A DNA stretch of 22,739 nt from a virus: positions 1-22,739 of IMG/VR virus record IMGVR_UViG_3300045738_001042, one strand, 5' to 3'. Below are positions 520-20,845 of the stretch, piece by piece. Each line of letters begins with the position of its first letter. Within the stretch, counting starts at the first letter, position 1. Position numbers and translations under genes: made by a program. The notes under the pieces are model-generated. The model searched no databases, was not told the origin of the DNA, and saw nothing but the letters and a program-made list of their open reading frames with translations.

Positions 520-1683
520 TCAGGAGGATTTGATGTAAGCGAATGCAGCGGCAGTCGGGACCGCAACAGCGATCCTCTCACTTACGCGCATCCAGCGGTT
601 GCTTTCCTTGAACCCTGCCTCGCTTGAGAACGCGACACTGAATCCATCCCGAATCCCGAGCACACAGTGGGAAAAGTCCCCATAGAGCACGGACTTGACG
701 CCAGTAGCGTCAACCGAGGGCATCTGCGTGGTCATGGCATACGGGCGGCCGAGTATCGTCGGCTCCATGCCGCCAGCAAACATCGACCAGATCGGGTTGC
801 CTTGGGTGTCCTTGATATTCCGCAGGTGCTCACCGATGGACGGATGGAACACGAATGTCCCACGGTCAATCAGGCTGGCATCGACGGAATGCTGGACTTT
901 CACTATGTCACCGTAATCGATGTCAGTGAAGCTCGCACCGCCATCGACCGCCGTGACACCAACAGTGTCCAAGACGCCCGTGAACGGGGAGGTGGAATTC
1001 AAGCACTGCTTGTCCTCTTCCTTTGCCAGGGCTTCTGCGAAGACCTCCAGGAGGTATGCGCCTACGTCGATAGCCGCATCGCCGCCCAATTCGTCGGAAA
1101 TGGCGGTTAAGCCAACCAACTTCTTGGCCGTCAGGTTCACGCTCGTGAACTCGTCCTTGTCCTCAAGGGGGGCTACGCCCTCACCCGGGAACAACACCTT
1201 GACGGTGTTAGCGCCATCGCGGCTCGTGAGCTTCACGGTGTCGCTGCCCATCGGCATTACACGGCACAGTGAACGGGCGATACCCGCTCTCTCCACAATG
1301 CGAATCACCTCCGGCGCGACCAGGTCGGGAACCAGGAAACCGCCATCAGTCGTTACCTCGCCGGTCTGCACGTCGTCAGCATCACGGCTCTCGTACCCAG
1401 GGGTGAACGCAATCTGGTAGATCTCGCTCGCCCACTCACCCAGCATCCGCTTGCGGTCTACTGAGTCGGGAACGTACTTGCTGGTGAACTCGCGGTGTGA
1501 ATTGCCCGAGTCTTCGAGCTTTTCCAAGCGAGCCTTATTTTCCGCGAACGCTTCCTCGTAAGTCGAGAGTTGTTCTTTCAACCCATCGACCTCAGAGAGG
1601 CGCTCCTCTACACGCTCAACGCTGTCCAAAAGGCGCGTGAGCTTATCGTCTGTCTTGATCTGAATATCCGGCGCATCGGCCAT
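520..1683 (-). CDS. HK97-family major capsid protein
   Basis: This 387-aa protein forms the phage head shell. An N-terminal coiled-coil segment (about residues 10-60, TRLLDSVERVEERLSEVDG and following) matches the delta/scaffold domain of HK97-type capsid proteins that is cut off during maturation. It is followed by the family hallmark TTDGGFLVPDLVAPEVI at the start of the mature subunit. A-domain and P-domain sequence continues to the C terminus, with GRPYAMTTQMP and LYGDFSHCVLGIRDG typical of the family. The start is ATG 1683, with GGAGG eight bases upstream. A TTG five codons upstream overlaps that site and is unlikely. The gene lies directly downstream of the prohead protease, the usual order. 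Length is normal for the family. Confidence 0.95.
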   Translation of the reverse strand: MADAPDIQIKTDDKLTRLLDSVERVEERLSEVDGLKEQLSTYEEAFAENKARLEKLEDSGNSHREFTSKYVPDSVDRKRMLGEWASEIYQIAFTPGYESRDADDVQTGEVTTDGGFLVPDLVAPEVIRIVERAGIARSLCRVMPMGSDTVKLTSRDGANTVKVLFPGEGVAPLEDKDEFTSVNLTAKKLVGLTAISDELGGDAAIDVGAYLLEVFAEALAKEEDKQCLNSTSPFTGVLDTVGVTAVDGGASFTDIDYGDIVKVQHSVDASLIDRGTFVFHPSIGEHLRNIKDTQGNPIWSMFAGGMEPTILGRPYAMTTQMPSVDATGVKSVLYGDFSHCVLGIRDGFSVAFSSEAGFKESNRWMRVSERIAVAVPTAAAFAYIKSS

Positions 1684-1700
1684 AATACTTTCCTCCAAAG

Positions 1701-1721
1701 AAAAAACCGCCCCGAGGCGGT
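1701..1721 (-). terminator. Hairpin with T-run upstream of the capsid gene
   Basis: Arms 1706-1711 and 1716-1721 form ACCGCC-TCGG-GGCGGT on the leftward strand, a stable tetraloop hairpin. It is followed by an unbroken run of T (1701-1706). The capsid ribosome site (GGAGG) begins a few bases later. It may be a partial terminator, an mRNA 5'-end stabiliser or a processing site separating protease and capsid messages. Confidence 0.65.
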
Positions 1722-1738
1722 CCTAGTGTTGTGAGTGC

Positions 1739-1783
1739 CCGCCCGTTATGGGCGGCATTGACTGGCTACGTTACCCAGTAGCC
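1739..1783 (-). repeat. Two small hairpins between protease and capsid genes
   Basis: CCGCCC (1739-1744) pairs with GGGCGG (1750-1755). GGCTAC (1764-1769) pairs with GTAGCC (1778-1783). With the terminator-like hairpin at 1701-1721 they make the 122-base gap between the protease stop and capsid start almost entirely structured. No reading frame is seen there. The function is unknown; differential mRNA stability is one option. Confidence 0.45.
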
Positions 1784-1805
1784 GTGGGTCGCTGGTACGA
1801 ACTAT

Positions 1806-3095
1806 TTAGCCGTTGCGCCGACCTAGTTTTTCCAGCTTAGTGAGTACGCCATCCAGGGCTATATCTGCCCCGGAACGGCGCGAAATCAGTGTTTGCGCGA
1901 CTGTGTTATGAGCCGCTGTATCGATCTTGTCCGACAGGCGGCCAATGGCGCGTTCGAGGTGCTCCATCCGACCGTCGATGAAATCCTCAACCGTAGGCTC
2001 ATCGGCCTGCTTCTGCTCTTCCTCGATCTCCCCGTTCGCAGCGGAGTCGAGTACGGAGCGGATGAGTTCACCGGCCTGCTCAAGGGCTGATTGGTTTTTG
2101 CGATTCAAAACCGCGCCAACGCGGCCCTGTACGGCTTGTACCAATTCGCTGTAGTTCCCCCTGGCGGCGGAAAATGTCACATCCACGCAGTCCGCGATGA
2201 GTGACAGGGCGCCCAAGGCCATACATTCGCCCACGTCCGGGTCTGCGGTCGGTGTATGGACCGGCTCTGGTGCTTCCAGGTCGGGGGTGCAGTCTTCAAT
2301 CGGCTCTTCAGTGGCATCCATGTCGGGCTCCTCGGCTACGATATCGCGAGTGACCTCCTCCAGCTTCTCATCCTGGAGTGGCTCCGGTGCGACCTCGTCC
2401 TCCGGTGCCGCGTCGGCCTCCGTGGACAACTCGATGGTCGGATTCACCAACTCGATGGTTGGGTCGAAATCAGGGTCCGGCTGGTCCTGTTCCACTATCC
2501 AGGCACGGACTTGCTCGCACAGATCCTCGACACTCGCCCCATCCAGGGTGTCCACACCCGACTCGACATTCGCCGTCAGTAAATCCTTGTGTTCTTCGGG
2601 CACCATTCCTCGCTGGAATGCGTTGACCAGCGCCTGCGGGTTCGCTGGCACCGGGACTTGGGATAGTTCCATGAGGTCGTTATCGCGAAGCTCGTGGATA
2701 TTCTCGTCCTCCTTGAACTCCACCTTGCCGGGCGAAAAGCCCACCGACACGGCGCTGAGATACCCCTCTTTCACCATGTCGTAGATAGTACCGGCGAACG
2801 GGTAGATTTCCCGCGGGGCGTATTGTACGCGGAACCTCAGTTCCCCGGTTTCCTTATCTTCCTTGACATCGACCGTCCTACCTACGGGCGGCATATCGTA
2901 GCGGTGCGCCCACAGAAAAACCGGGTTACGTTTATAGTCCTTGAGCTTCCACCCCATTAACCGCGTACTATAGCGGTCGATAGACTGGTTGGAGCCGACG
3001 TATTCAATAATACGGTTTTCGTCATCGATGTTGCGTGTCTCGAAGTTAATCGCTTGGCGGGTTAATCCACCTACACTAAATTCTTCGTTGCTCAT
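1806..3095 (-). CDS. HK97-type prohead protease with long acidic C-terminal (scaffold-like) extension
   Basis: The 429-aa product has a protease domain at about residues 20-160. It shows IIEYVGSNQSIDRY, then the catalytic-histidine block FLWAHRYDMPPVG (H64), the serine block YLSAVSVGF (S117 likely nucleophile) and the closing LMELSQVPVPANPQAL. These are the family's conserved blocks in order. The protease cleaves the capsid delta domain during head maturation. Residues after about 170 are acidic and low in complexity (many E, D, P) and end in a predicted helical region, as in protease-scaffold fusions. A short internal duplication (DPTIEL, NPTIEL) lies near residue 215. The start ATG has GGGGAG just upstream. 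The adjacent portal and capsid genes support the call. The scaffold role of the tail is inference. Confidence 0.92.
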   Translation of the reverse strand: MSNEEFSVGGLTRQAINFETRNIDDENRIIEYVGSNQSIDRYSTRLMGWKLKDYKRNPVFLWAHRYDMPPVGRTVDVKEDKETGELRFRVQYAPREIYPFAGTIYDMVKEGYLSAVSVGFSPGKVEFKEDENIHELRDNDLMELSQVPVPANPQALVNAFQRGMVPEEHKDLLTANVESGVDTLDGASVEDLCEQVRAWIVEQDQPDPDFDPTIELVNPTIELSTEADAAPEDEVAPEPLQDEKLEEVTRDIVAEEPDMDATEEPIEDCTPDLEAPEPVHTPTADPDVGECMALGALSLIADCVDVTFSAARGNYSELVQAVQGRVGAVLNRKNQSALEQAGELIRSVLDSAANGEIEEEQKQADEPTVEDFIDGRMEHLERAIGRLSDKIDTAAHNTVAQTLISRRSGADIALDGVLTKLEKLGRRNG

Positions 3096-3108
3096 AATTC
3101 TCCCCGGT

Positions 3109-3127
3109 CGGGCCGTCCTGCGGCCCG
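3109..3127 (-). promoter_or_regulatory. Hairpin in the ribosome-binding region of the protease gene
   Basis: CGGGCCG (3109-3115) and CGGCCCG (3121-3127) form a 7-bp perfect stem with a 5-nt loop. It lies between the portal stop and the protease GGGGAG site, with no T-run, so it is not a terminator. It may shape translation or mRNA processing. Confidence 0.45.
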
Positions 3128-3140
3128 AAACAATGTAAAT

Positions 3141-5198
3141 TCATACGACGGAAATTGTCGTGCAGCGACAGTTAATGACGTTACTCGCATCACCCTTATC
3201 GTCCAACGGCCATCGCAGCCCATTGGAAAAATCATCCCCAAGGGTGACGACCTCGCCGTCGATCAGGTGGTCATGCCGCTCAGTGCGAACGATAGCATCG
3301 CGGGAGGATAGCCATTCATGCTGCTCCACCCCTTCCTGCTTCATCGCCGCGCCACGGCCAGCCTGCACGGCAGTGCCGACCTCGGTACGCGCAATCGTTC
3401 GGCTACGCCCCTTCCCGGCCTGGTTGAAATACTCTTGGACCCGTTTAGCGAGAGAATCCAGGTTCTCCCCGAGCCGCAGTCCGTCACGCAACTGGTTGCT
3501 CACGTCATCGAACGTCGTGCTGATAATCGTACCACCGAGATTAAAATCAACGATTCGGTTCGTCCTGTCCTTGAATGCCTGCAACCCTAAGTCGCTCTCA
3601 ATGGTGAAGGAGCTTGATGACCCCAACTCACCCAACACCATGTTCCCGCCCTGCTCGATGCCTTGTTGAATGAAGGGCTCGACCCAGGTCAGCAGTTCCT
3701 TGGTTTCCGCATCCATGGAGAAGAGGACTAACTGGACCCATTCTTCATCGGTCAGACCACGCACCGAACGCTCCCCTTGGGCGAATATATTTTCCAACAC
3801 CGTAGACCGCATCGAGAACAGGTGCCTACGAACTCTGGACATGAAGCGGTTTTCTAAAGGCTTGAGCCGCTCGACAAACCCACGCCAGTATTGAGCCCTC
3901 AGTGGATCATCGATGAGGGCCTTGGCTATCGGTATGTTACCACCGGCCGCCGGGGCTGTCTCTTCGACCGTCGCAGCGGCCTGGGCTTTCTGGACATCTG
4001 TAGCTGGCACCAACCCAGGGTTCGTCCACCAAACATCACCCCAAGGTTTATGCTCAAGTGGGAGTTTGAGCATATCGATAATATCGTTGAGCGGAACGCC
4101 CATGCGCCATAGCTTCTCTGCACGCCCAAGCTGGTCACCGACATCCTCACGAACACCCGGCGCGTCCCGTATCTGGAACACGCCGTCGATGTCGGGGGCG
4201 AAGCGTGAAAAGAACTGCGCCCGTAGGACATCCTCGATGTAGTGGATTTTCGGCACCCAGTTAGTCTCCGCAAAAATGCGGAGTTCCACCTGTGCAGTGC
4301 TGTAATTGGAGCGATTCGGATCGGCGGTTAGTAACCCGGGAACGCCGAAGGCCGCGTTGATTTGCTCGCGGCTGAATCGTCGTTGTTCGAGGAACTCCAT
4401 CTCTCGTTGGCCCAAGCCAATCTGCTGGTAGGACCAGTCCCCGGCGAGAACCGCGGTCTTGTGGGCCTGGCCGATCCCCCCGTGCTCATCATTCATTTGT
4501 GCTCGGACTTGTTCCTGCTGGGCCTTGGACATCGTCCGCTTGTAGATCAGGATACCGCCTGGTTGCGCGGCATTTTCAAAAAACTGCTCATTGTACGCCG
4601 CAGCCTTCATGTCAGTCCGCACCGCGGTCATGGCCGCCGTCAGTGGCGCGAGCCCCCACCACTGGTCGCGTGGGTTGGGGTACATGAAGTGGACCACCTC
4701 GTCGGGCATCAACTGAATCTTTTTTCGGCCTTGTCGAGTCTCGTACCCGATTAGACTGCCATCCTCACGGTCCCTTACGACCTTCGTAGTGAATGGGTCC
4801 AGGACGCGAATGGACAACGGCATCTTGATGTTGCGTTGCGTGGGAAGTTCGAGCCACCACATCGCATTACCCGCCAATTCCATACTCGCAATGGTGTTGA
4901 ACCAGAGTTCATACCGCGACTTCCTGGGCGACGGGCGGCGAAATCGATCAAACGCCGTCCCCGAGGTGATGGGGGTGCCATTGCGTTGGAGTGAAAAATC
5001 CACGGTAGCGATGGTCCGCGCAATAGCTTGAACACACGCATAAACCCACGCTTGACGCTGATACGATGTCGCTTCGGAAACCCCAATGCGGACGGAGTCC
5101 GCGCCGGTCTTAAATGCCCGGGCCGCAGCGTCTATCGAATCGCGGCTTTCTATCGGTTGTCCGCTGGCCGTAACCAGTGGCGGTAAAATCTCTCTGAT
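3141..5198 (-). CDS. Fused portal and MuF-type head morphogenesis protein
   Basis: The frame gives about 685 residues if it starts at ATC 5198. The N-terminal two thirds is a phage portal protein: WVYACVQAIARTIATVDFSL near residue 55, then MELAGNAMWWLEL, the block VVHFMYPNPRDQWWGLAPL, and FSREQINAAFGVPGLL. Portals form the DNA-entry ring of the head. The last 80 or so residues match the Phage Mu F-like domain: ARTEVGTAVQAGRGAAMKQ, EWLSSRDAIVRTERHDHLI, WPLDDKGDASNVINCRC. These are normally two adjacent genes. No in-frame ATG, GTG or TTG exists between the upstream stop at 5229 and GTG 5003, yet conserved portal sequence is encoded upstream of 5003. Translation therefore probably begins at a rare start codon, ATC 5198 (AGGAG seven bases upstream) or ATT 5189, unless there is a frameshift from the parB-like gene or a sequence error. 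Confidence 0.9.
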   Translation of the reverse strand: MREILPPLVTASGQPIESRDSIDAAARAFKTGADSVRIGVSEATSYQRQAWVYACVQAIARTIATVDFSLQRNGTPITSGTAFDRFRRPSPRKSRYELWFNTIASMELAGNAMWWLELPTQRNIKMPLSIRVLDPFTTKVVRDREDGSLIGYETRQGRKKIQLMPDEVVHFMYPNPRDQWWGLAPLTAAMTAVRTDMKAAAYNEQFFENAAQPGGILIYKRTMSKAQQEQVRAQMNDEHGGIGQAHKTAVLAGDWSYQQIGLGQREMEFLEQRRFSREQINAAFGVPGLLTADPNRSNYSTAQVELRIFAETNWVPKIHYIEDVLRAQFFSRFAPDIDGVFQIRDAPGVREDVGDQLGRAEKLWRMGVPLNDIIDMLKLPLEHKPWGDVWWTNPGLVPATDVQKAQAAATVEETAPAAGGNIPIAKALIDDPLRAQYWRGFVERLKPLENRFMSRVRRHLFSMRSTVLENIFAQGERSVRGLTDEEWVQLVLFSMDAETKELLTWVEPFIQQGIEQGGNMVLGELGSSSSFTIESDLGLQAFKDRTNRIVDFNLGGTIISTTFDDVSNQLRDGLRLGENLDSLAKRVQEYFNQAGKGRSRTIARTEVGTAVQAGRGAAMKQEGVEQHEWLSSRDAIVRTERHDHLIDGEVVTLGDDFSNGLRWPLDDKGDASNVINCRCTTISVV

Positions 5199-5210
5199 TC
5201 GAGTTCTCCT
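5196..5210 (-). promoter_or_regulatory. Ribosome binding site and possible ATC start of the portal gene
   Basis: Read leftward, AGGAG (5210-5206) overlaps the stop codon of the ParB-like gene and is followed after seven bases by ATC (5198-5196), in frame with the portal. The ideal spacing is the main reason to propose this non-standard start. ATT 5189-5187 is the alternative. Confidence 0.45.
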
Positions 5211-5760
5211 ACTCCGACCTAGAGGCTTCTAACCACCGTTGAATGGCCTCATTTTTGTCGGGACCGTACTGTTTGAGATGCTGCCGGACGCGGTCCACCA
5301 CGCCACCCGGCAGTATGAAGGTGAGTCGTTGAGTATCGTCGGGGGGGCGGTCGGTGATGTCACTCACCGCTTCGTATTCCTCACCAACCAAGCACGCCGA
5401 TTCGCCCTGGTCGAAACCCAGGTCGTACCCAGTCAGGTCGCCCAAGAGGTCACCCAGGGTATCAATGTTCCATTCGGCAAGTTCGGCAGTGCGGTTCAGG
5501 GCGATATTGAGCGCCATCGCCGCCTGCTCGTCTATATCGAGCAGAACGACATCGGCCTCATCCCGACCTAGCCGCCGTAGCGCCTCAAGTCGGCCATGTC
5601 CAGCAATGAGCTTGTTTGTACCCTCCTGCACCAATAAGGGTTCAACCTGCCCGAACTGCCGAAAACTATCCATGATGGCCTCGATGTTCCGTTCACCGTG
5701 GATGCGGGGATTCCGATCATCCGGTAGTATCTCGTCAAGGGGTAACTGTACTACGTCCAT
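5209..5760 (-). CDS. ParB-like nuclease/N-terminal domain protein
   Basis: The 183-aa protein opens with the ParB N-terminal fold: PLDEILPDDRNPRIHGERN, then IMDSFRQFGQVEPLLVQ, then the signature NKLIAGHGRLEALRRLG (GHxR motif, near residues 53-61). It continues with LDIDEQAAMALNIALNRTAE. Such proteins occur in phage packaging regions, often next to terminase or fused to DNA methylases. Their role there is uncertain; nucleotide (CTP) binding is known for the ParB family. No methylase domain is attached. The start ATG 5760 overlaps the upstream stop as TGATG, indicating translational coupling; the TTG one codon earlier is unlikely. It ends by overlapping the portal ribosome site. Confidence 0.85.
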   Translation of the reverse strand: MDVVQLPLDEILPDDRNPRIHGERNIEAIMDSFRQFGQVEPLLVQEGTNKLIAGHGRLEALRRLGRDEADVVLLDIDEQAAMALNIALNRTAELAEWNIDTLGDLLGDLTGYDLGFDQGESACLVGEEYEAVSDITDRPPDDTQRLTFILPGGVVDRVRQHLKQYGPDKNEAIQRWLEASRSE

Positions 5761-5981
5761 CAATCACTCAGGCTGTGCATGAGTTGGTGCTTGATCATTT
5801 CGATCCAACTAAGCACCTCAAGCACTGTGGCCGACCCCGCCACCGAGAACCCCACGGAGTCCGTCGAGTCATCGTAGTAGACAAGCAGCGCGGATCGCCA
5901 GGTAGGGCCGTCGGCCTCCATGAGGGCGGCGAGCCGTTCGATACTCTCGGTACGATTCTTGGAAATCGGTACGACTTTCAT
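5760..5981 (-). CDS. Small protein of unknown function between large terminase and ParB-like gene
   Basis: The 73-aa product begins MKVVPISKNRTESIERLAAL. It has a helical N-terminal half, a central strand-rich patch (ALLVYYDDSTDSVGFSVAG) and a C-terminal helix (LEVLSWIEMIKHQLMHSLSD). No family is recognised. It is almost certainly expressed: its ATG overlaps the terminase stop as TAATG and its own stop overlaps the ParB-like start as TGATG, so three genes are translationally chained. No signal peptide or membrane segment is seen. Confidence 0.75.
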   Translation of the reverse strand: MKVVPISKNRTESIERLAALMEADGPTWRSALLVYYDDSTDSVGFSVAGSATVLEVLSWIEMIKHQLMHSLSD

Positions 5982-7393
5982 TAGCAGTACCCGATCAGCC
6001 CAGCAGACGTTTCGTAAAACGCCAGCATCATGGCGTCCGCCATGTCGGGACTCGCACCGATCTTCCGCCGCAACACATCCTTGGAATCGACTCGTCGTAA
6101 ACCGTTCGGTGTGAATGCATACTCGGTAGGTAAAAGTTCGGCTGTGAGGTGCTCGATATTCTCAGCCGTTACATCTTCAGTAAAGGCGATTTCCCCGGCA
6201 CCAAAGCGGCCAGCGAACTCGAACCACAACTGGTCACGGAGTTTTGGGTACTGGTCTATCTCGGCTGATTCAGACACGTTCACGCCGACGACCTCTGCGT
6301 TCAACATCCCGCTGTCCGACATCGCCATGAGGTTGTCAACCACACCAGCGCCGATACCTATCTCGTCAATCTTAACGGATTCCACCTCGTACATCTGGCA
6401 AATATCAGATACTCGATTTGTCGTTTCCACTAAATCACAGCCCAACCAACGGTTGATCGACACCACATTGCGGCCCTTCCTGACCACACAGACGGTATGA
6501 TCTCCACCGTACCGGGCCACGTCCACACCAGCCTCTAGGCGTTCTTCGCCCTCATTGAAGGTGTCGCGGTTGCGGGCATCTAGTAGCCAATCCAACCGGA
6601 ACATGGACGTGTCCGATTGCGTGGGGAATTCACCATCAACATCCATTGCTATAAATGGTGACTTTTCTCCGTACTTCGCTTCGAGTCGCTTGAGGTGTTC
6701 CGCGGCCACTAGGGGGCTGTCACGGGCCGAAAAGTGTAGACACTCCCACAGGTCGCGTGATGCATGATGGGAATCGTAAAACATCCCCGATAGGCGTGTT
6801 GGGTTGCTGACTAACAGAGCCAGGTTGTGCGCCTCAGACATCCCCCTGAGTAGCGCCTCTAGGATGTCGTCCTCGACGCCCGACGCCTCTTCTACCACCA
6901 CCAGCATATCCTGCCGGTGTTGGCCCTGGATGTTCTCAATGTCACGGGCTGTCTGCGCTATCGCCTGCCATTCGACGGCCTCGCCCTTCACCCTGATCGA
7001 AGTCGGCCGCCACTCTAGGACACGGGAGAGAAAGGGGCTGTTACGGATTTGCTTTTCGAGTTGCGTCCAGAGGACGTTAAATACCTGTTCGCGCTTGGGC
7101 GCCGTGGCGACCACGAGGGAGTTCCGGTGGCAAACTAGGAACCAGAGGATCGCGTAGGCAGCACCCACGCTCTTCCCGACGCCCTTACCACTGCGGACGG
7201 TCACCCCAAACTTGCCACGGTTGTGCCCCGCCACCGCTCGCAGCATTTGCTCTTGGTGCGGAACCGGAGTCTCGCCAATAACCTGCTTGACAAACAACAC
7301 CGGGTCTTTTCGCCATCCGGCGATTTTGGCGGAAACTTCTTCCACCTCCGCGGGTGAGAGTACCCAGTCAGTTGTAGACAGGGTTGTCGTCAT
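5981..7393 (-). CDS. terL: Terminase large subunit (ATPase and nuclease)
   Basis: The 470-aa motor protein cuts phage DNA and pumps it into the head. The ATPase domain has Walker A SGKGVGKS (68-75), Walker B MLVVVEEAS with the catalytic glutamate at 168-169, and the coupling motif LLVSNPTR (193-200). The RNase H-like nuclease domain has GVDVARYGGDHT (D291), KIDEIGIGAGV (D343) and SPDMADAMMLAF (D450, D453), the expected acidic triad. Length is typical. The ATG lies 26 bases inside the 3' end of the small-terminase gene. Its stop TAA overlaps the next ATG. A protein with both intact active sites and the standard neighbours makes the call firm. Confidence 0.96.
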   Translation of the reverse strand: MTTTLSTTDWVLSPAEVEEVSAKIAGWRKDPVLFVKQVIGETPVPHQEQMLRAVAGHNRGKFGVTVRSGKGVGKSVGAAYAILWFLVCHRNSLVVATAPKREQVFNVLWTQLEKQIRNSPFLSRVLEWRPTSIRVKGEAVEWQAIAQTARDIENIQGQHRQDMLVVVEEASGVEDDILEALLRGMSEAHNLALLVSNPTRLSGMFYDSHHASRDLWECLHFSARDSPLVAAEHLKRLEAKYGEKSPFIAMDVDGEFPTQSDTSMFRLDWLLDARNRDTFNEGEERLEAGVDVARYGGDHTVCVVRKGRNVVSINRWLGCDLVETTNRVSDICQMYEVESVKIDEIGIGAGVVDNLMAMSDSGMLNAEVVGVNVSESAEIDQYPKLRDQLWFEFAGRFGAGEIAFTEDVTAENIEHLTAELLPTEYAFTPNGLRRVDSKDVLRRKIGASPDMADAMMLAFYETSAGLIGYC

Positions 7394-8757: not shown

Positions 8758-8763
8758 TTGCCA

Positions 8764-9624
8764 ATGAATATCGAAGAATATTTCAATACCTGGCGGGATC
8801 AGGACGTATCGAGATCGTGGCGAAAGACTAGGCGGTGCCTAGTCAGAAAATACTGCCTCCCTGTGTTGGGGAAAAGGGAGTTCTCGGAACTCACCCCAGC
8901 CGACCTGATGGCCGTACTCGATGGTGTGCAGGGATGCCGGGCGTCAACGGCAAATAAAGTCGTTTTTAATGCCTTTCGCGCCCTCTTGCGGGATGCCACC
9001 CGGGATGGATACGCCTCGTGGGATTTGATCCCGACACTCTACGCCCGATTGAAGCGGAAAACCGGGGAGAACGCCGAGGAGCGTAGACCCTTGACGGTCG
9101 AGGAGCGGGACGTGATTCTCGGCAAACTCAAATCGTCAATGAAGCCGGTGGAGGCACTGTTTGTTCGCTTCCTGTTGTTTACTGGCGTTCGCCCAAACGA
9201 GGCTTTAGGGCTGACCTGGGGGCGGGTTTGCGGTGAAACCCGCCGCGCCTACATCAACGAGGGCATCGTGGACGGGTGCGTGACGACACTGAAAACCCAG
9301 CGCTCCCGCAGGTGGGTCGAAATTCCCGACACGCTCTGGCACGCTATGCCGGAGCACGAAGACGTGGAGGAGAGGGTCTTTGCCGAAGTCAAAATAGCGA
9401 AACTCCGCGCTGCCTGGAACGAAATCGTTCAACGGATGGGCCTGACCAACAAACCCTTGTATATTTGCCGCCACACTTTCATCAGCCAAGCCCTTTCGAG
9501 CGGTGTGCCGCTGCCTGTGGTCGCGGCGCAGGTAGGCGACAACCCATCGGTAGTAGAAAAGGTCTACTACCGCTACCTCAAGAGCAGTAGGACCGATTGG
9601 GACCGAGCCCTTAGTAGCTCATAA
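8764..9624 (+). CDS. int: Tyrosine recombinase integrase
   Basis: The 286-aa protein has an N-terminal SAM-like core-binding domain (residues 3-95; TWRDQDVSRSWRKTRRCL, ELTPADLMAVLDGV) and a C-terminal catalytic domain. Catalytic residues: Arg in LFTGVRPNEALGLTW (about R143), Lys in TTLKTQRSRRW (about K177), Arg-His in LYICRHTFISQAL, and the nucleophile Tyr in VVEKVYYRYL near residue 270. The first His of the HxxR box is Tyr, and the usual G-H before the tyrosine is G-D (VGDNPS). Both changes occur in other phage integrases. It lacks the long arm-binding N-terminal domain of lambda Int. ATG 8764 is chosen over TTG 8758. It should integrate and excise the phage; no attachment site was recognised. 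Confidence 0.92.
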   Translation: MNIEEYFNTWRDQDVSRSWRKTRRCLVRKYCLPVLGKREFSELTPADLMAVLDGVQGCRASTANKVVFNAFRALLRDATRDGYASWDLIPTLYARLKRKTGENAEERRPLTVEERDVILGKLKSSMKPVEALFVRFLLFTGVRPNEALGLTWGRVCGETRRAYINEGIVDGCVTTLKTQRSRRWVEIPDTLWHAMPEHEDVEERVFAEVKIAKLRAAWNEIVQRMGLTNKPLYICRHTFISQALSSGVPLPVVAAQVGDNPSVVEKVYYRYLKSSRTDWDRALSSS

Positions 9625-11913: not shown

Positions 11914-12336
11914 ATGGGATCGATGAATATGGTGGTTCTGGTCGGGCATCTCGGCCAAAACCCTGAGCTAAAAGAAACGAATTCGGGCCGTAGCGTCTGC
12001 ACGTTGCGTATTGCCACGAACGAGCGTTGGAAGGACAAGGAGGGGCAAGCCCAGGAGCGAACCGAGTGGCACAACGTGGTTGTGTGGGGCCATGACGCGG
12101 ACCACTGCGGACAGTATCTCCACCAAGGCAGCGCCGTTTGCATCCGCGGTCGCATCCAGACCCGCAAGTGGGAGGACAGGGACGGCAACGAACGCTCCTC
12201 CACCGAGATCGTAGCCGACATGGGTGGCGTGGAATTCCTGGGCAGTAAGGCGGAGGAAGGTGGTTATAAAAACGGGGCGTCGAAGAGCCCCCGTGACGAT
12301 GGGGCAGAGGAGGACGGTAGGGATGTACCGTTTTAA
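11914..12336 (+). CDS. ssb: Single-stranded DNA-binding protein
   Basis: The 140-aa protein has a complete OB-fold domain (residues 1-110): MVVLVGHLGQNPELKETNSG, TLRIATNERWKD, RTEWHNVVVWG, GSAVCIRGRIQTRKWEDRDG. A short linker and the acidic C-terminal tip DGRDVPF follow, the equivalent of the DDIPF tail that recruits repair and replication partners. GAGGAG precedes the ATG. It follows the exonuclease, annealing and cysteine-rich genes and precedes the initiator module, as expected for a phage SSB used in both recombination and replication. It is shorter than host SSB (about 170-180 aa), typical of phage forms. Confidence 0.95.
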   Translation: MGSMNMVVLVGHLGQNPELKETNSGRSVCTLRIATNERWKDKEGQAQERTEWHNVVVWGHDADHCGQYLHQGSAVCIRGRIQTRKWEDRDGNERSSTEIVADMGGVEFLGSKAEEGGYKNGASKSPRDDGAEEDGRDVPF

Positions 12337-17080: not shown

Positions 17081-17647
17081 ATGAGCTTGCCCGATATTCA
17101 GAGTTGGGACGAAGCTGTGTCGGTTGGCATCGACTGCCTCCAGGCAGAGTCCGACAGCGCGTGGACGCTGGGTGATCTGGCGAACCTGATTGCTAAGATC
17201 CGCCCCAATGACAAGTACCTCCGGGGTAAGACCTCCACCCTGAAGAAATTCGCGGGCGAGTTGAACATATCTTACTCCAGCCTGCGGAAATATGCCCTCA
17301 CGTCCATGCACGTCGAATCCGGCTTGAGGACATCGTTACCCACGATGACCCACGGGCATTGGCGTGAGATTATCGGGCGGGGCCATCGGGGCTCCGAGGC
17401 AATCGAGTGGGCCATGAAGGCCGATGAGGAGCGGTGGGCGGTCACCCGGCTACGAAGGGAGTTACGCTCCGGCGTGGACGTGCCTCACGCGGTGAGGTGG
17501 TTGAAGAGCATGGCGGCAACGGCCAGACGGATTGGATACGAGGATGTGGACGCCTGTTTTAGGGCGGACCCGGAGGATGTGAGCGGTGAGGTGGAAGATA
17601 TTCAGCAGGTTTTGGGCTGGTTCTGTGAGCTTAACCCACCGGGTTAG
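17081..17647 (+). CDS. Helix-turn-helix protein resembling phage partition/regulatory proteins
   Basis: The 188-aa product has an HTH-like segment in TLKKFAGELNISYSSLRKYA (about residues 52-72). Next comes a region with MTHGHWREIIGRG (about 88-100) and EWAMKADEERWAVTRLRREL (about 108-128). The order 'HTH - SxxHxxE - AxxxxWSVxxLRxxL' is familiar from uncharacterised phage and actinobacterial DNA-binding proteins with ParB/KorB-like helical domains. The C-terminal 50 residues are acidic. The ATG is used, but its ribosome site is weak. Function is not established; regulator or partition-type DNA binder is inference. Confidence 0.55.
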   Translation: MSLPDIQSWDEAVSVGIDCLQAESDSAWTLGDLANLIAKIRPNDKYLRGKTSTLKKFAGELNISYSSLRKYALTSMHVESGLRTSLPTMTHGHWREIIGRGHRGSEAIEWAMKADEERWAVTRLRRELRSGVDVPHAVRWLKSMAATARRIGYEDVDACFRADPEDVSGEVEDIQQVLGWFCELNPPG

Positions 17648-17810
17648 GCTGCTCGAACTCGAACAGCAGACACAGTCCGCGCAGATCGGCCTTGTAGCGA
17701 CCGAGTGCGCGACCCTTGCTACCACCCTGGCGGCAATCCTGTCGGGATTAAATAAGCTCACCGATGTAATCCATGACCCTGGGCCGGGAGGGGACCGGGA
17801 ACTCCATTGA
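17625..17810 (+). CDS. 61-aa small protein, coiled coil plus hydrophobic helix
   Basis: GTG 17625 lies 23 bases before the end of the previous gene. The product begins with a charged helix (VSLTHRVRLLELEQQTQSAQ) and continues into a small-residue hydrophobic helix (IGLVATECATLATTLAAILS, about residues 21-40). That is a weak candidate membrane or amphipathic segment. It ends in a flexible acidic tail. The stop overlaps the next ATG as TGATG, which supports translation. No family is recognised. Confidence 0.5.
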   Translation: MSLTHRVRLLELEQQTQSAQIGLVATECATLATTLAAILSGLNKLTDVIHDPGPGGDRELH

Positions 17811-18241
17811 TGCGGGTCTATTCGCGCTTCAACGAGGGGGTGGTGTACACGCTGCAATCCCACCGTGGGTTCGAGTGCTGTCAGTGCTCGTTATCGCGCC
17901 CACGAAAAACGATCACCGTGAAGAGCGCAGAAGACTTAATCATCCACCTGCACCACCACTTGGCGGTGGGCCATGAGGTGCCCGAGAAGGCCCTACAACT
18001 CTTATCCCGGGAAATCGGGGAACCGGACACGGGGCAGCCACGCTCGGCGTCCGCCACCGAAGCAGCCGCCAATGTGATTACCGGCGCGGGGGTCGCCTGG
18101 GTGCTCACGATGTGGGTGTTGCCGCTGTGGGGGCACGCCTACGCTATGCACGAGACTTTCGAGATTACCGCGGTGTACGCCTCGGCTGCGTTTATCCGGT
18201 CCTACTGTTTACGCCGATGCTTCGACAGGAGGTCCAGATGA
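17810..18241 (+). CDS. Zinc-finger domain fused to a DUF7220-like membrane protein
   Basis: The 143-aa product has two parts. Residues 1-65 carry GFECCQCSLSRPRKTITV and EDLIIHLHHHLAVGHEVPEK, a cysteine knuckle (C23/C26) followed by a histidine helix (H47-H55). This is a C2H2-like finger as in small phage zinc proteins. Residues 82-140 read TEAAANVITGAGVAWVLTMW, VLPLWGHAYAMHETFEI and AFIRSYCLRRCFD. That is the pattern of a widespread two-span phage protein (DUF7220-like: E-x-x-x-N-x-x-x-G, FPL-(W/F)-G, F-x-(R)-S-Y-x-x-R-R-x-F). The two parts are normally separate proteins. ATG 17810 is preferred over TTG 17807 because of the TGATG coupling. Family assignment of the second half is by pattern memory. 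Confidence 0.65.
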   Translation: MRVYSRFNEGVVYTLQSHRGFECCQCSLSRPRKTITVKSAEDLIIHLHHHLAVGHEVPEKALQLLSREIGEPDTGQPRSASATEAAANVITGAGVAWVLTMWVLPLWGHAYAMHETFEITAVYASAAFIRSYCLRRCFDRRSR

Positions 18242-18822
18242 GAACGGTTATCAGCTTGGCGTTTATCCTCATGGCGACTCCCGCGTGGGCGGTGATTTGC
18301 GGCGATAGTGATCTCAATGGAGTCATCAACATCCGCGACCCGTTACGGATTCTCCGACACTCCGTAGAGCTACCCTCCCCGTGTAAAGACAACGCCATCG
18401 TCTGCGACGTAGACGGTGATGGGGACATCGACGTGAACGACGCCCTGGATGTCCTACGCCGTGTGGTTGGTTACTGGTTGCCCATGGACTGTAAGTTCCC
18501 TGTCGTGGTGCAAGTCACGGGGGCAACCCCACTGGCTGGCATGAGCCTGACGCTGACCTATCCACCATCGCAGGCCACGGTTATGGCGGGGTGTGATTTC
18601 AACACTGGCGGGTTCGACTTGGCGCAGGCTTTCGCACCTAGCGATACCGAAACCGGGGTGGCGATGATTACCTTAACTGATGTCCCCCTTCCTGCGGATA
18701 TTATTCGGTGTGACGGCTATGGCCACTATGCCAGCTTGGTGGTTGTGGTCACTGAGGCTTTTGATGCGGATCTAAACGAGGCGGCGGTGGGTGTGGATGT
18801 TGTCCCCAACATGGCGCCGTGA
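18238..18822 (+). CDS. Secreted dockerin-like protein with a cohesin-like beta domain
   Basis: ATG 18238 has a strong AGGAGG five bases upstream and overlaps the previous stop (ATGA). The 194-aa product begins with a signal peptide (MRTVISLAFILMATPAWA, cleavage after residue 18). Two calcium-loop-helix units follow: GDSDLNGVINIRDPLRIL (D23, D25, N27, G28, N31, D34) and CDVDGDGDIDVNDALDVLRR (D57, D59, D61, G62, D65, D68). These are the paired F-hand repeats of type I dockerins. Residues 87-190 are beta-rich with PLAGMSLTLTYPPSQATV and end in VGVDVVPNMAP, resembling a cohesin/carbohydrate-binding Ig-like fold. Six cysteines may form disulfides. The partner and role are unknown. The frame is open upstream, but the signal peptide and ribosome site fix this start. 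Confidence 0.75.
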   Translation: MRTVISLAFILMATPAWAVICGDSDLNGVINIRDPLRILRHSVELPSPCKDNAIVCDVDGDGDIDVNDALDVLRRVVGYWLPMDCKFPVVVQVTGATPLAGMSLTLTYPPSQATVMAGCDFNTGGFDLAQAFAPSDTETGVAMITLTDVPLPADIIRCDGYGHYASLVVVVTEAFDADLNEAAVGVDVVPNMAP

Positions 18823-19217
18823 GCGATTATTCTTATGGATCACCATCTGCCGCTATGTATCGTTACTTCGAGCTATACCACGCGCTGCAATCGCCAGGCT
18901 CGCAACCAATGGACCCGGATCGTGTCCGGGCGCCGAGTCGGACCAGTGGGGATAATGAAGCGGCCATTGAGTGGCACGACCTCCAGAAGATCGTCAAGGG
19001 GGTTGAGGAGGATGAGTGGAACGCACTATATCTCGAATACTCACAACAAACAGTGCCTATCGATGGGCCGAAGTACGGTCGAAACAAACTAGAGGGATTA
19101 AGACAAAGATGCGGAAGACAGTTGACAGTGAACGATTATATCCGGTTAGTGCAGCAGGGCTTGCGAAAGGTAACGCAGAACCTATTCGACCTGGGGTGGT
19201 GTCTACCGAAGCCCTGA
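18819..19217 (+). CDS. Protein of unknown function, possibly sigma/antiterminator-like
   Basis: The 132-aa product starts with GTG 18819 (GTGA overlap with the secreted protein). It reads MYRYFELYHALQSPGSQP, then AIEWHDLQKIVKGVEEDEW and NALYLEYSQQ, then TVNDYIRLVQQGLRKVTQNL ending FDLGWCLPKP. The order of an acidic helix with 'L-x-L-x-Y' and a C-terminal 'GL-x-x-v-x-x-L' helix loosely recalls RinA/ArpU-type late-gene activators and sigma70 region 4 proteins in phages. The middle helix-turn-helix is not clear. The presence of terminators within the late operon makes an antiterminator welcome, but this assignment is weak. Confidence 0.55.
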   Translation: MSDYSYGSPSAAMYRYFELYHALQSPGSQPMDPDRVRAPSRTSGDNEAAIEWHDLQKIVKGVEEDEWNALYLEYSQQTVPIDGPKYGRNKLEGLRQRCGRQLTVNDYIRLVQQGLRKVTQNLFDLGWCLPKP

Positions 19218-20302: not shown

Positions 20303-20845
20303 GTGGGTAAGATTCCCCAGAGGGCGGTTAGTGTTCCGCGCATCCTGTTTGACCAAATCGAAGAGGCCGCGCACAAGGAATACCGCGATGTCTCCAATAT
20401 GGTGCGGATTTTACTCATGGAGGCGTTAGACCGTCGTGCGGAGAGGGGCGCCCTGTTTCACCCCCAATCGATACGAAAAATCGGTGAGATGGGGAGGTGC
20501 GAAAAGGCCCTGCCTGACGATTGTGAACTAAGAGAAATGTTGGTTGAAGGAAAAAAGATGTACGTTGCGGTATGTGGCCGGGACGCGCCCGCGCACCGAT
20601 TCACGTTGAAGGACGGGACTGCGTGTTTTGGCTACTGGCCGACATTGGCAAAAACCAGGTTGGACTTGGAGGGAGTGCGGAAGCACAGGTCGCCCAGGCT
20701 CAGGGAGAAAGATGTGGTCATCATCCGGCAGCGCCTAGACCAGGGTGAGGCGATGGCTGCGATTGCGGAAACTTTCGGGGTGTCTAGGGACGCGATCCGT
20801 GATATAAAGCGAGGGCGAACGTGGAAATCTGTTATGGAGGAGTAA
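20303..20845 (+). CDS. Ribbon-helix-helix protein with C-terminal helix-turn-helix
   Basis: The 180-aa product starts with GTG 20303. Residues 5-45 (RAVSVPRILFDQIEEAAHKE, RDVSNMVRILLMEALDRR) match an Arc/CopG-type ribbon-helix-helix: a strand, a helix, then 'S-N-M-V-R-x-L-L'. Residues 133-176 (REKDVVIIRQRLDQGEAMAA, IAETFGVSRDAIRDIKRG, RTWKSV) match the HTH often found at the end of phage HNH/AP2 proteins ('G-x-x-x-x-x-I-A-x-x-F-G-V-S-x-x-x-I-x-x-I-x-x-G-x-x-W'). No nuclease motif lies between, so it is probably a regulator with two DNA-binding ends. Confidence 0.7.
   Translation: MGKIPQRAVSVPRILFDQIEEAAHKEYRDVSNMVRILLMEALDRRAERGALFHPQSIRKIGEMGRCEKALPDDCELREMLVEGKKMYVAVCGRDAPAHRFTLKDGTACFGYWPTLAKTRLDLEGVRKHRSPRLREKDVVIIRQRLDQGEAMAAIAETFGVSRDAIRDIKRGRTWKSVMEE

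Follow-up and report, generated by a model that had tools for sequence, protein, structure and literature searches.

Why would a phage encode a small, apparently exported protein that joins a dockerin to a cohesin-like domain? Dockerin-cohesin pairs are strong, specific extracellular contacts known from bacteria and archaea, and a virus that combined the two halves in a single small secreted protein would, if the reading developed below is true, have a new route to the surface of its host. The question arises from the window analyzed here, the whole IMG/VR virus record IMGVR_UViG_3300045738_001042 (22,739 bases), which is classed as linear and is therefore possibly incomplete.

Genomic context of the gene

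The gene occupies positions 18238–18822 of the plus strand and encodes 194 aa, as established by its translation, its homology and its overlaps with both neighbors; start and stop are where the earlier note had placed them. Its ATG at 18238 overlaps the TGA of the upstream gene (ATGA, 18238–18241), its own TGA overlaps the GTG start of the downstream ORF at 18819 (GTGA), and a Shine-Dalgarno-like AGGAGGT (18227–18233, plus strand) lies 4 bases upstream of the ATG. The earlier note had described translational coupling to phage genes: the overlaps on both sides and the ribosome site bear out the arrangement, from which coupled translation itself may be presumed. The upstream gene (17807–18241, plus strand) matches DUF7220 (Pfam, E 4.5e-18) and phrog_4276 (PHROG, E 4.3e-16), and its product appears by eye to form a hydrophobic hairpin; the downstream ORF (18819–19217, plus strand) has no family match in Pfam or PHROG.

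The rest of the record has a clear phage layout. Head genes (capsid, protease, portal with a Mu F domain, and large terminase) fill 520–7393 of the minus strand, identified by PHROG and Pfam, the terminase by PHROG only. Within this block, a single 620-aa ORF (3141–5003, minus strand) combines the portal and Mu F-like head protein domains. The integrase, YqaJ, ERF, SSB and small genes follow on the plus strand, beginning at 8758. The tyrosine integrase (8758–9624, plus strand; phrog_1, E 2.9e-38; Pfam Phage_integrase) makes a temperate lifestyle likely, and the SSB gene (11914–12336, plus strand; Pfam SSB, E 4.1e-37) serves below as a host indicator. The dockerin-cohesin gene sits on this early/replication side, with no identified repressor adjoining it, a position that counts against the adaptor role proposed below. 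Further along, the product of 20303–20845 (plus strand) has a sub-threshold ribbon-helix-helix match at its N-terminus and helix-turn-helix matches at its C-terminus.

The gene has a GC content of 0.574, against 0.577 for the window, and its GC and GC3 (0.662) lie between the extremes seen in 11 other plus-strand genes (GC 0.526–0.611, GC3 0.571–0.779); by composition, therefore, it does not resemble a recent foreign insertion. Misassembly or stray host DNA would fit the fact that the homologues described below are host proteins, but ORFs overlap the gene on both sides and the 22.7-kb record has phage genes from 520 as far as 18241 at least, so that we regard the chance that this is not a phage gene as next to negligible.

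Related phages give little to compare. Searches of the viral contigs through DUF7220, the protein encoded at 17081–17647 or the terminase found no phage relatives, and the closest terminase match among those listed is 36.5% identical, which is not a close phage relative. In three other phages with a DUF7220 match, the next gene is annotated as an opposite-strand hypothetical protein, an SNF2-related protein and a helicase, respectively.

Signal peptide and dockerin

Residues 1–18 (18238–18291, plus strand) form a predicted signal peptide, read by eye and by hydropathy as MRT / VISLAFILMATP / AWA-V, with a mean hydropathy of 2.8 over residues 4–13 and AWA preceding the likely cut. This agrees with the signal peptide proposed in the earlier note and suggests that the protein is exported. 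Export bears on whether the product could be a virion part, decorating the particle and helping it to adhere to proteins of the host surface. Such domains could conceivably bind host surfaces; however, a signal peptide would carry the protein away from cytoplasmic assembly, and the head genes are far away on the opposite strand. We consider this role highly improbable.

The signal peptide is followed by a type I dockerin (residues 19–85; 18292–18492, plus strand; cysteines 21, 49, 56 and 85), assigned from Pfam, the predicted model and the conserved cysteines. Its two calcium loops are D23-S-D25-L-N27-G28-V-I30-N31-I-R-D34 (18304–18339, plus strand) and D57-V-D59-G-D61-G62-D-I64-D65-V-N-D68 (18406–18441, plus strand). 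We take the dockerin calcium-loop motif to be D/N at positions 1, 3, 5 and 9, G at 6 and D at 12; every one of these positions is filled in both loops, and the dockerin would thus be expected to bind calcium. Pfam Dockerin_1 matches residues 22–75 with E 1.2e-4 and 22.6 bits, 0.3 bits short of the cut-off of 22.9. The bacterial relatives L024, L006 and L070 score 24.4, 29.7 and 28.4 bits, and 26 of the 28 members of the family alignment match (E <= 0.1). In the full-length predicted model (mean pLDDT 74.3), residues 21–80 reach about 90–97. Dockerins head its VIA comparison, with 4uyq_B at Z 11.6 over 68 residues (rmsd 2.6); the best Foldseek match of the full model has E 7.0e-3, with none below 0.001. 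The two dockerin calcium loops reported in the earlier note are thus complete in sequence, within a predicted dockerin fold.

The cohesin-like domain

A beta domain with cysteines 119 and 158 (residues 86–194; 18493–18819, plus strand) follows the dockerin directly, without a linker. It was delimited from the predicted model, Foldseek and VIA comparisons, and bacterial homologues. Pfam Cohesin matches neither residues 86–194 nor any of the 28 family-alignment members (E <= 0.1); hence, we call the domain cohesin-like and do not place it in PF00963. A profile search of solved structures gave one weak match over the beta part, to the Archaeoglobus cohesin 2xdh (E 0.49).

We modeled residues 84–194 alone, with six bacterial rows in the alignment. 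The best of five models has a pLDDT of 83.1 and a pTM of 0.72, while the other four range from 53.8 to 73.2 in pLDDT. The first 13 Foldseek rows for the best model are cohesin entries, headed by 2xdh (E 6.2e-3, TM 0.60 by query length), with no match at E < 0.001. VIA-align also places 2xdh on top (Z 8.3, 103 of 111 residues, rmsd 3.0), and all of rows 1–37 of 50 bear titles that name a cohesin, a cohesin-dockerin complex or a piece of a scaffoldin (Z 8.3 to 5.8); for 3kcp_A and 4fl4_I, we take the aligned part to be the cohesin. A Z near 8 is modest, and it is the uniform list of cohesins that persuades us that the second domain has a predicted cohesin beta-sandwich fold. As the rows of six relatives shape the model, this fold is a statement about the family.

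Cohesins resemble other beta sandwiches in fold, and the beta domain could instead be a ligand- or glycan-binding module that the dockerin merely fixes to the host surface. Pfam's silence on cohesin fits that view; the structural rows do not, since all of rows 1–37 are cohesin entries and the first other row has a Z of 5.7 against a best of 8.3. We judge this explanation very unlikely. With the dockerin just below the Pfam cut-off and the beta domain uncalled, the case for the two domains rests on homology and fold. On this footing, the earlier note's cohesin-like domain is supported by homology, conserved cysteines and predicted structure. Its reading was to fall if the calcium loops or an Ig-like fold were absent; the sequence and the predicted models contain both.

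Bacterial relatives of the module

A DNA pattern for a cysteine-flanked dockerin recovered 70 genome loci, many of them clostridial. In viral contigs, where scans rely on short exact peptide patterns and absence is weak evidence, the strict two-loop cysteine pattern recovered 0 stretches. With the phage protein alone as query, the best matches are two proteins of one genome titled Candidatus Binatia, L024 (51.3 bits) and L006 (49.2 bits), and the 51.3-bit match covers residues 19–146, that is, the dockerin and part of the beta domain. In the genomes of one bacterial order, described below, the single-protein search reaches 58 bits, with 34% identity over residues 16–184. With the protein alone, no near relative was found in viral contigs or the genome collection; tblastn of phage records and of plasmids (E <= 1) found none of the gene either, and the protein has no match in PHROGs (E <= 0.1) or NCBIfam (E <= 1).

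The genome search yielded 31 distinct dockerin-plus-beta modules besides the phage copy, 29 from the dockerin-rich order and two (L133, L134) from other genomes of the class. Our alignment holds 27 of them, leaving out two near-copies (L139, L134), a partial module (L094) and a divergent one (L165). The six phage cysteine columns are shared by 26, 27, 27, 27, 26 and 26 of the 27 relatives, and the cysteines probably form disulfide bonds within each domain. A profile of the 27 relatives, built without the phage protein, scores it at 80.7 bits, against at most 6.6 in 1000 whole-protein shuffles. With the dockerin kept and shuffling confined to the beta part, none of 2000 copies attains 80.7 (mean 64.5, best 76.6). 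Because the alignment used to find the 27 rows already included the phage protein, there is some circularity here; the single-protein searches (51.3 and 58 bits) are free of it. The beta part alone scores 7.9 bits against a beta-only profile, not above its shuffles (up to 9.9), so its sequence kinship rests on context, cysteines and fold.

In the bacteria, the module is C-terminal: 29 of the 31 end within 30 residues of the end of the frame. The host-order modules (e.g., L024, L006 and L070), which belong to no named family, share with the phage protein the domain order, the six cysteines and a beta domain directly after the dockerin. The proteins that carry them are larger, L024 adding two further beta domains and DUF4215, whereas the phage protein is the module alone with its own signal peptide. 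The shortest open frames with the module are 260 and 264 aa and start at a contig edge.

A likely host among dockerin-rich bacteria

Three of 198 genomes in a phylum sample match the module profile (E <= 1e-15), as do 17 of 145 in a class sample in which the best-ranked candidates per genome were scored. By itself, the phage protein matches all 13 genomes examined of one order near Binatia (G001, G002, G022, G178, G212, G220, G234, G241, G248, G254, G260, G266 and G272) at E <= 1e-5. Two genomes of the order have 45 and 63 dockerin/beta profile matches (E <= 1e-6, dockerin-only and beta-only matches included), so potential host partners would be abundant.

The phage SSB points the same way. 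It has matches in 137 of the 145 class genomes (E <= 1e-20), and the 13 best are exactly the 13 of the order. Identity rises to 58% within the order, compared with at most 51.7% in the best 12 of 1387 phage records and at most 48.5% in the best 12 of at least 5000 plasmids. In the SSB tree, the phage has a long branch, and a clade of phage plus order was neither found nor rejected (p-AU 0.29). The terminase gives no pointer to the order: it has matches at 28–33% identity in 10 of 145 genomes, of which a single one (G272) belongs to the dockerin-rich order. Tetranucleotides were compared across 20 genomes, 11 of which belong to the order; the closest, G301, does not belong to it, and the six ranked after it do. 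Altogether, this suggests that the host is likely in or near the dockerin-rich order close to Binatia.

The genomes of this order encode many Cys-dockerin proteins together with a cohesin-fold domain that Pfam does not recognize. These proteins perhaps form a non-cellulosomal network; a literature search for dockerin and Binatota found no paper.

Dockerins in other viral contigs

Dockerin genes recur in viral contigs. One of 39 pattern stretches, L072 (IMGVR_UViG_3300036806_000476, a 16.5-kb phage or prophage record with terminase genes and a methyltransferase), encodes a relative. The module profile finds three dockerin genes in it (13–1146, 1721–2227 and 6366–7202), with scores of 40.4, 29.9 and 28.4 bits, where Pfam gives matches below cut-off or none. 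A 278-aa dockerin gene on the opposite strand overlaps the small terminase gene and has the methyltransferase gene on its other side; the two further dockerin genes are at one end of the record and could be host flank. With a looser dockerin pattern, four among the 120 stretches listed match the dockerin profile, which is not a rate for viruses.

One of these four, the contig L289 (IMGVR_UViG_3300007533_000439), encodes a 229-aa protein (75–764) with a signal peptide (by eye), then Cohesin (E 8.6e-14) and then Dockerin_1 (E 1.1e-9), both above the Pfam cut-off. Its 253-aa neighbor (794–1555) has a lipobox (by eye), a Cohesin match (E 1.7e-8) and a Por secretion tail below cut-off. The 6.4-kb contig has a portal-like gene (PHROG E 1.1e-8, no Pfam match) downstream of the pair. 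The pair could be host flank; possibly, it is a virus-encoded anchor and chain. The 229-aa protein resembles the phage protein in its apparent signal peptide, its two domains and its place near a portal-like gene, but differs in its reverse domain order, the lack of the six-cysteine pattern, the neighbor with a Por tail and a GC of 0.45. Payload-free cohesin/dockerin pairs thus have two examples, the window gene and L289, with opposite domain orders.

The other three of the four encode endolysin-like proteins that end in a Pfam Dockerin_1 domain: L266 (515–1831, minus strand), L269 (12119–12865, minus strand) and L313 (5220–6590, minus strand). Their enzyme domains are GH25, Amidase_2, and Peptidase M15 plus GH25, respectively. 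Dockerin-bearing cell-wall hydrolases have been reported for a Ruminococcus cellulosome (PMC6403190). Two dockerin queries, bacterial or viral, matched only two and five unannotated fecal phage records, the five-record match being to the dockerin of one viral-contig endolysin-like protein.

Recurrence bears on whether the gene is passive cargo, a host exoprotein tail captured by the phage and produced without a selected role. Donor genes are plentiful in host-order genomes, and the exact gene has no near relative in phage records or in viral contigs, where the pattern scans are weak. On the other side, the calcium loops and the six cysteines are all intact, the ribosome site is good, the gene overlaps are tight, the composition fits the phage, and dockerin genes are found in other viral contigs. 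We therefore think passive carriage unlikely.

Proposed role at the host surface

Compared with its larger bacterial relatives, the phage protein retains just the connecting module, and the simplest role is thus that of a connector or cap. We propose that the protein is a calcium-dependent adaptor or cap for host dockerin-cohesin contacts, derived from a homologous host-lineage module, and we hold this whole reading with about as much confidence as doubt. Its starting point is the gene product itself: after a predicted signal peptide, a dockerin with calcium loops runs straight into a domain of predicted cohesin fold. The phage copy is probably the dockerin and cohesin-like module of the host lineage without its payload, transferred, we infer, from host to phage. 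Outside the cell, the phage dockerin could dock onto host cohesin-like domains while the phage cohesin-like domain takes host dockerins, and the extracellular protein network of an infected or lysogenic cell would be changed or blocked. A benefit through masking of receptors against other phages is a further and weaker suggestion. The earlier note had offered binding of a host cohesin or dockerin as one option beside self-assembling chains and exclusion of other phages; the abundance of the same modules in the likely host order strengthens this option.

The dockerin repeats add a nuance. We take repeat positions 10–11 to be specificity positions, as in clostridial dockerin work. The phage has IR there in repeat 1 and VN in repeat 2, and neither pair occurs at the same repeat in the 131 Cys-dockerins from the loci, a set that includes Clostridia; so the phage dockerin may not bind common host partners. 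Positions 17–18 of both phage repeats are LR, the commonest pair among these Cys-dockerins (47 and 41 of 131). Judging from these residues, the phage dockerin may favor one of the rarer host partners or its own kind.

Another reading is a self-assembling chain that coats the cell, each copy attaching through its dockerin to the cohesin-like domain of the following copy. Both halves are on one chain without a linker, and the L289 pair adjoins a second cohesin protein with an apparent lipobox, a possible chain anchor. Against this, nothing supports mutual recognition of the two halves, and a dockerin and a cohesin on the same chain normally have different partners. We see such a chain as distinctly unlikely.

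The adaptor or cap may have a more general counterpart. Phages of unrelated hosts may have repeatedly taken host dockerin/cohesin blocks and export them payload-free to rewire or cap the surface network, for example excluding competitors; we offer this tentatively and with more doubt than belief. If the adaptor reading is true, it makes the non-cellulosomal dockerin networks of little-known bacteria testable, both for what they hold together and for why a phage interferes with them. More speculatively, the six-cysteine version might serve protein engineering as a disulfide-held pair.

Comparison with known systems

Phage-borne dockerins are already in print, and non-cellulosomal cohesins and dockerins, as well as both in one protein, are known. 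Gene 40 of Vibrio phage VvAW1 was described in 2012 as having blastp homology to dockerin type I proteins, with a suggested bacterial origin (PMC3558961). The likeness to our protein is by description only, and that paper mentions no cohesin. A coliphage tail protein has also been reported as similar to a dockerin/carbohydrate-binding structure (PMC5967307). A full-text literature search, which was not exhaustive, met no phage-encoded cohesin and dockerin pair.

Among cellular systems, ANME archaea, which are not cellulose degraders, have been reported to combine a dockerin and several cohesins in one protein (PMC9012536); these proteins have up to five cohesins, compared with one cohesin-like domain in the phage protein. 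A strong, specific cohesin-dockerin pair outside cellulosomes has been reported from Archaeoglobus fulgidus (PMC9705933), and the non-cellulosomal cohesin 2xdh of this organism is the closest structural row for the phage beta domain. That pair is archaeal, not phage, and the likeness is one of beta-domain fold and profile. With the type I dockerins and cohesins of clostridial cellulosomes, the phage protein shares the two calcium loops, the dockerin fold (4uyq_B, Z 11.6) and the predicted cohesin fold. No enzyme or carbohydrate-active or carbohydrate-binding domain was found in it (Pfam, E <= 1), and we do not class it as a cellulosome component; it also differs from the clostridial systems in its six conserved cysteines.
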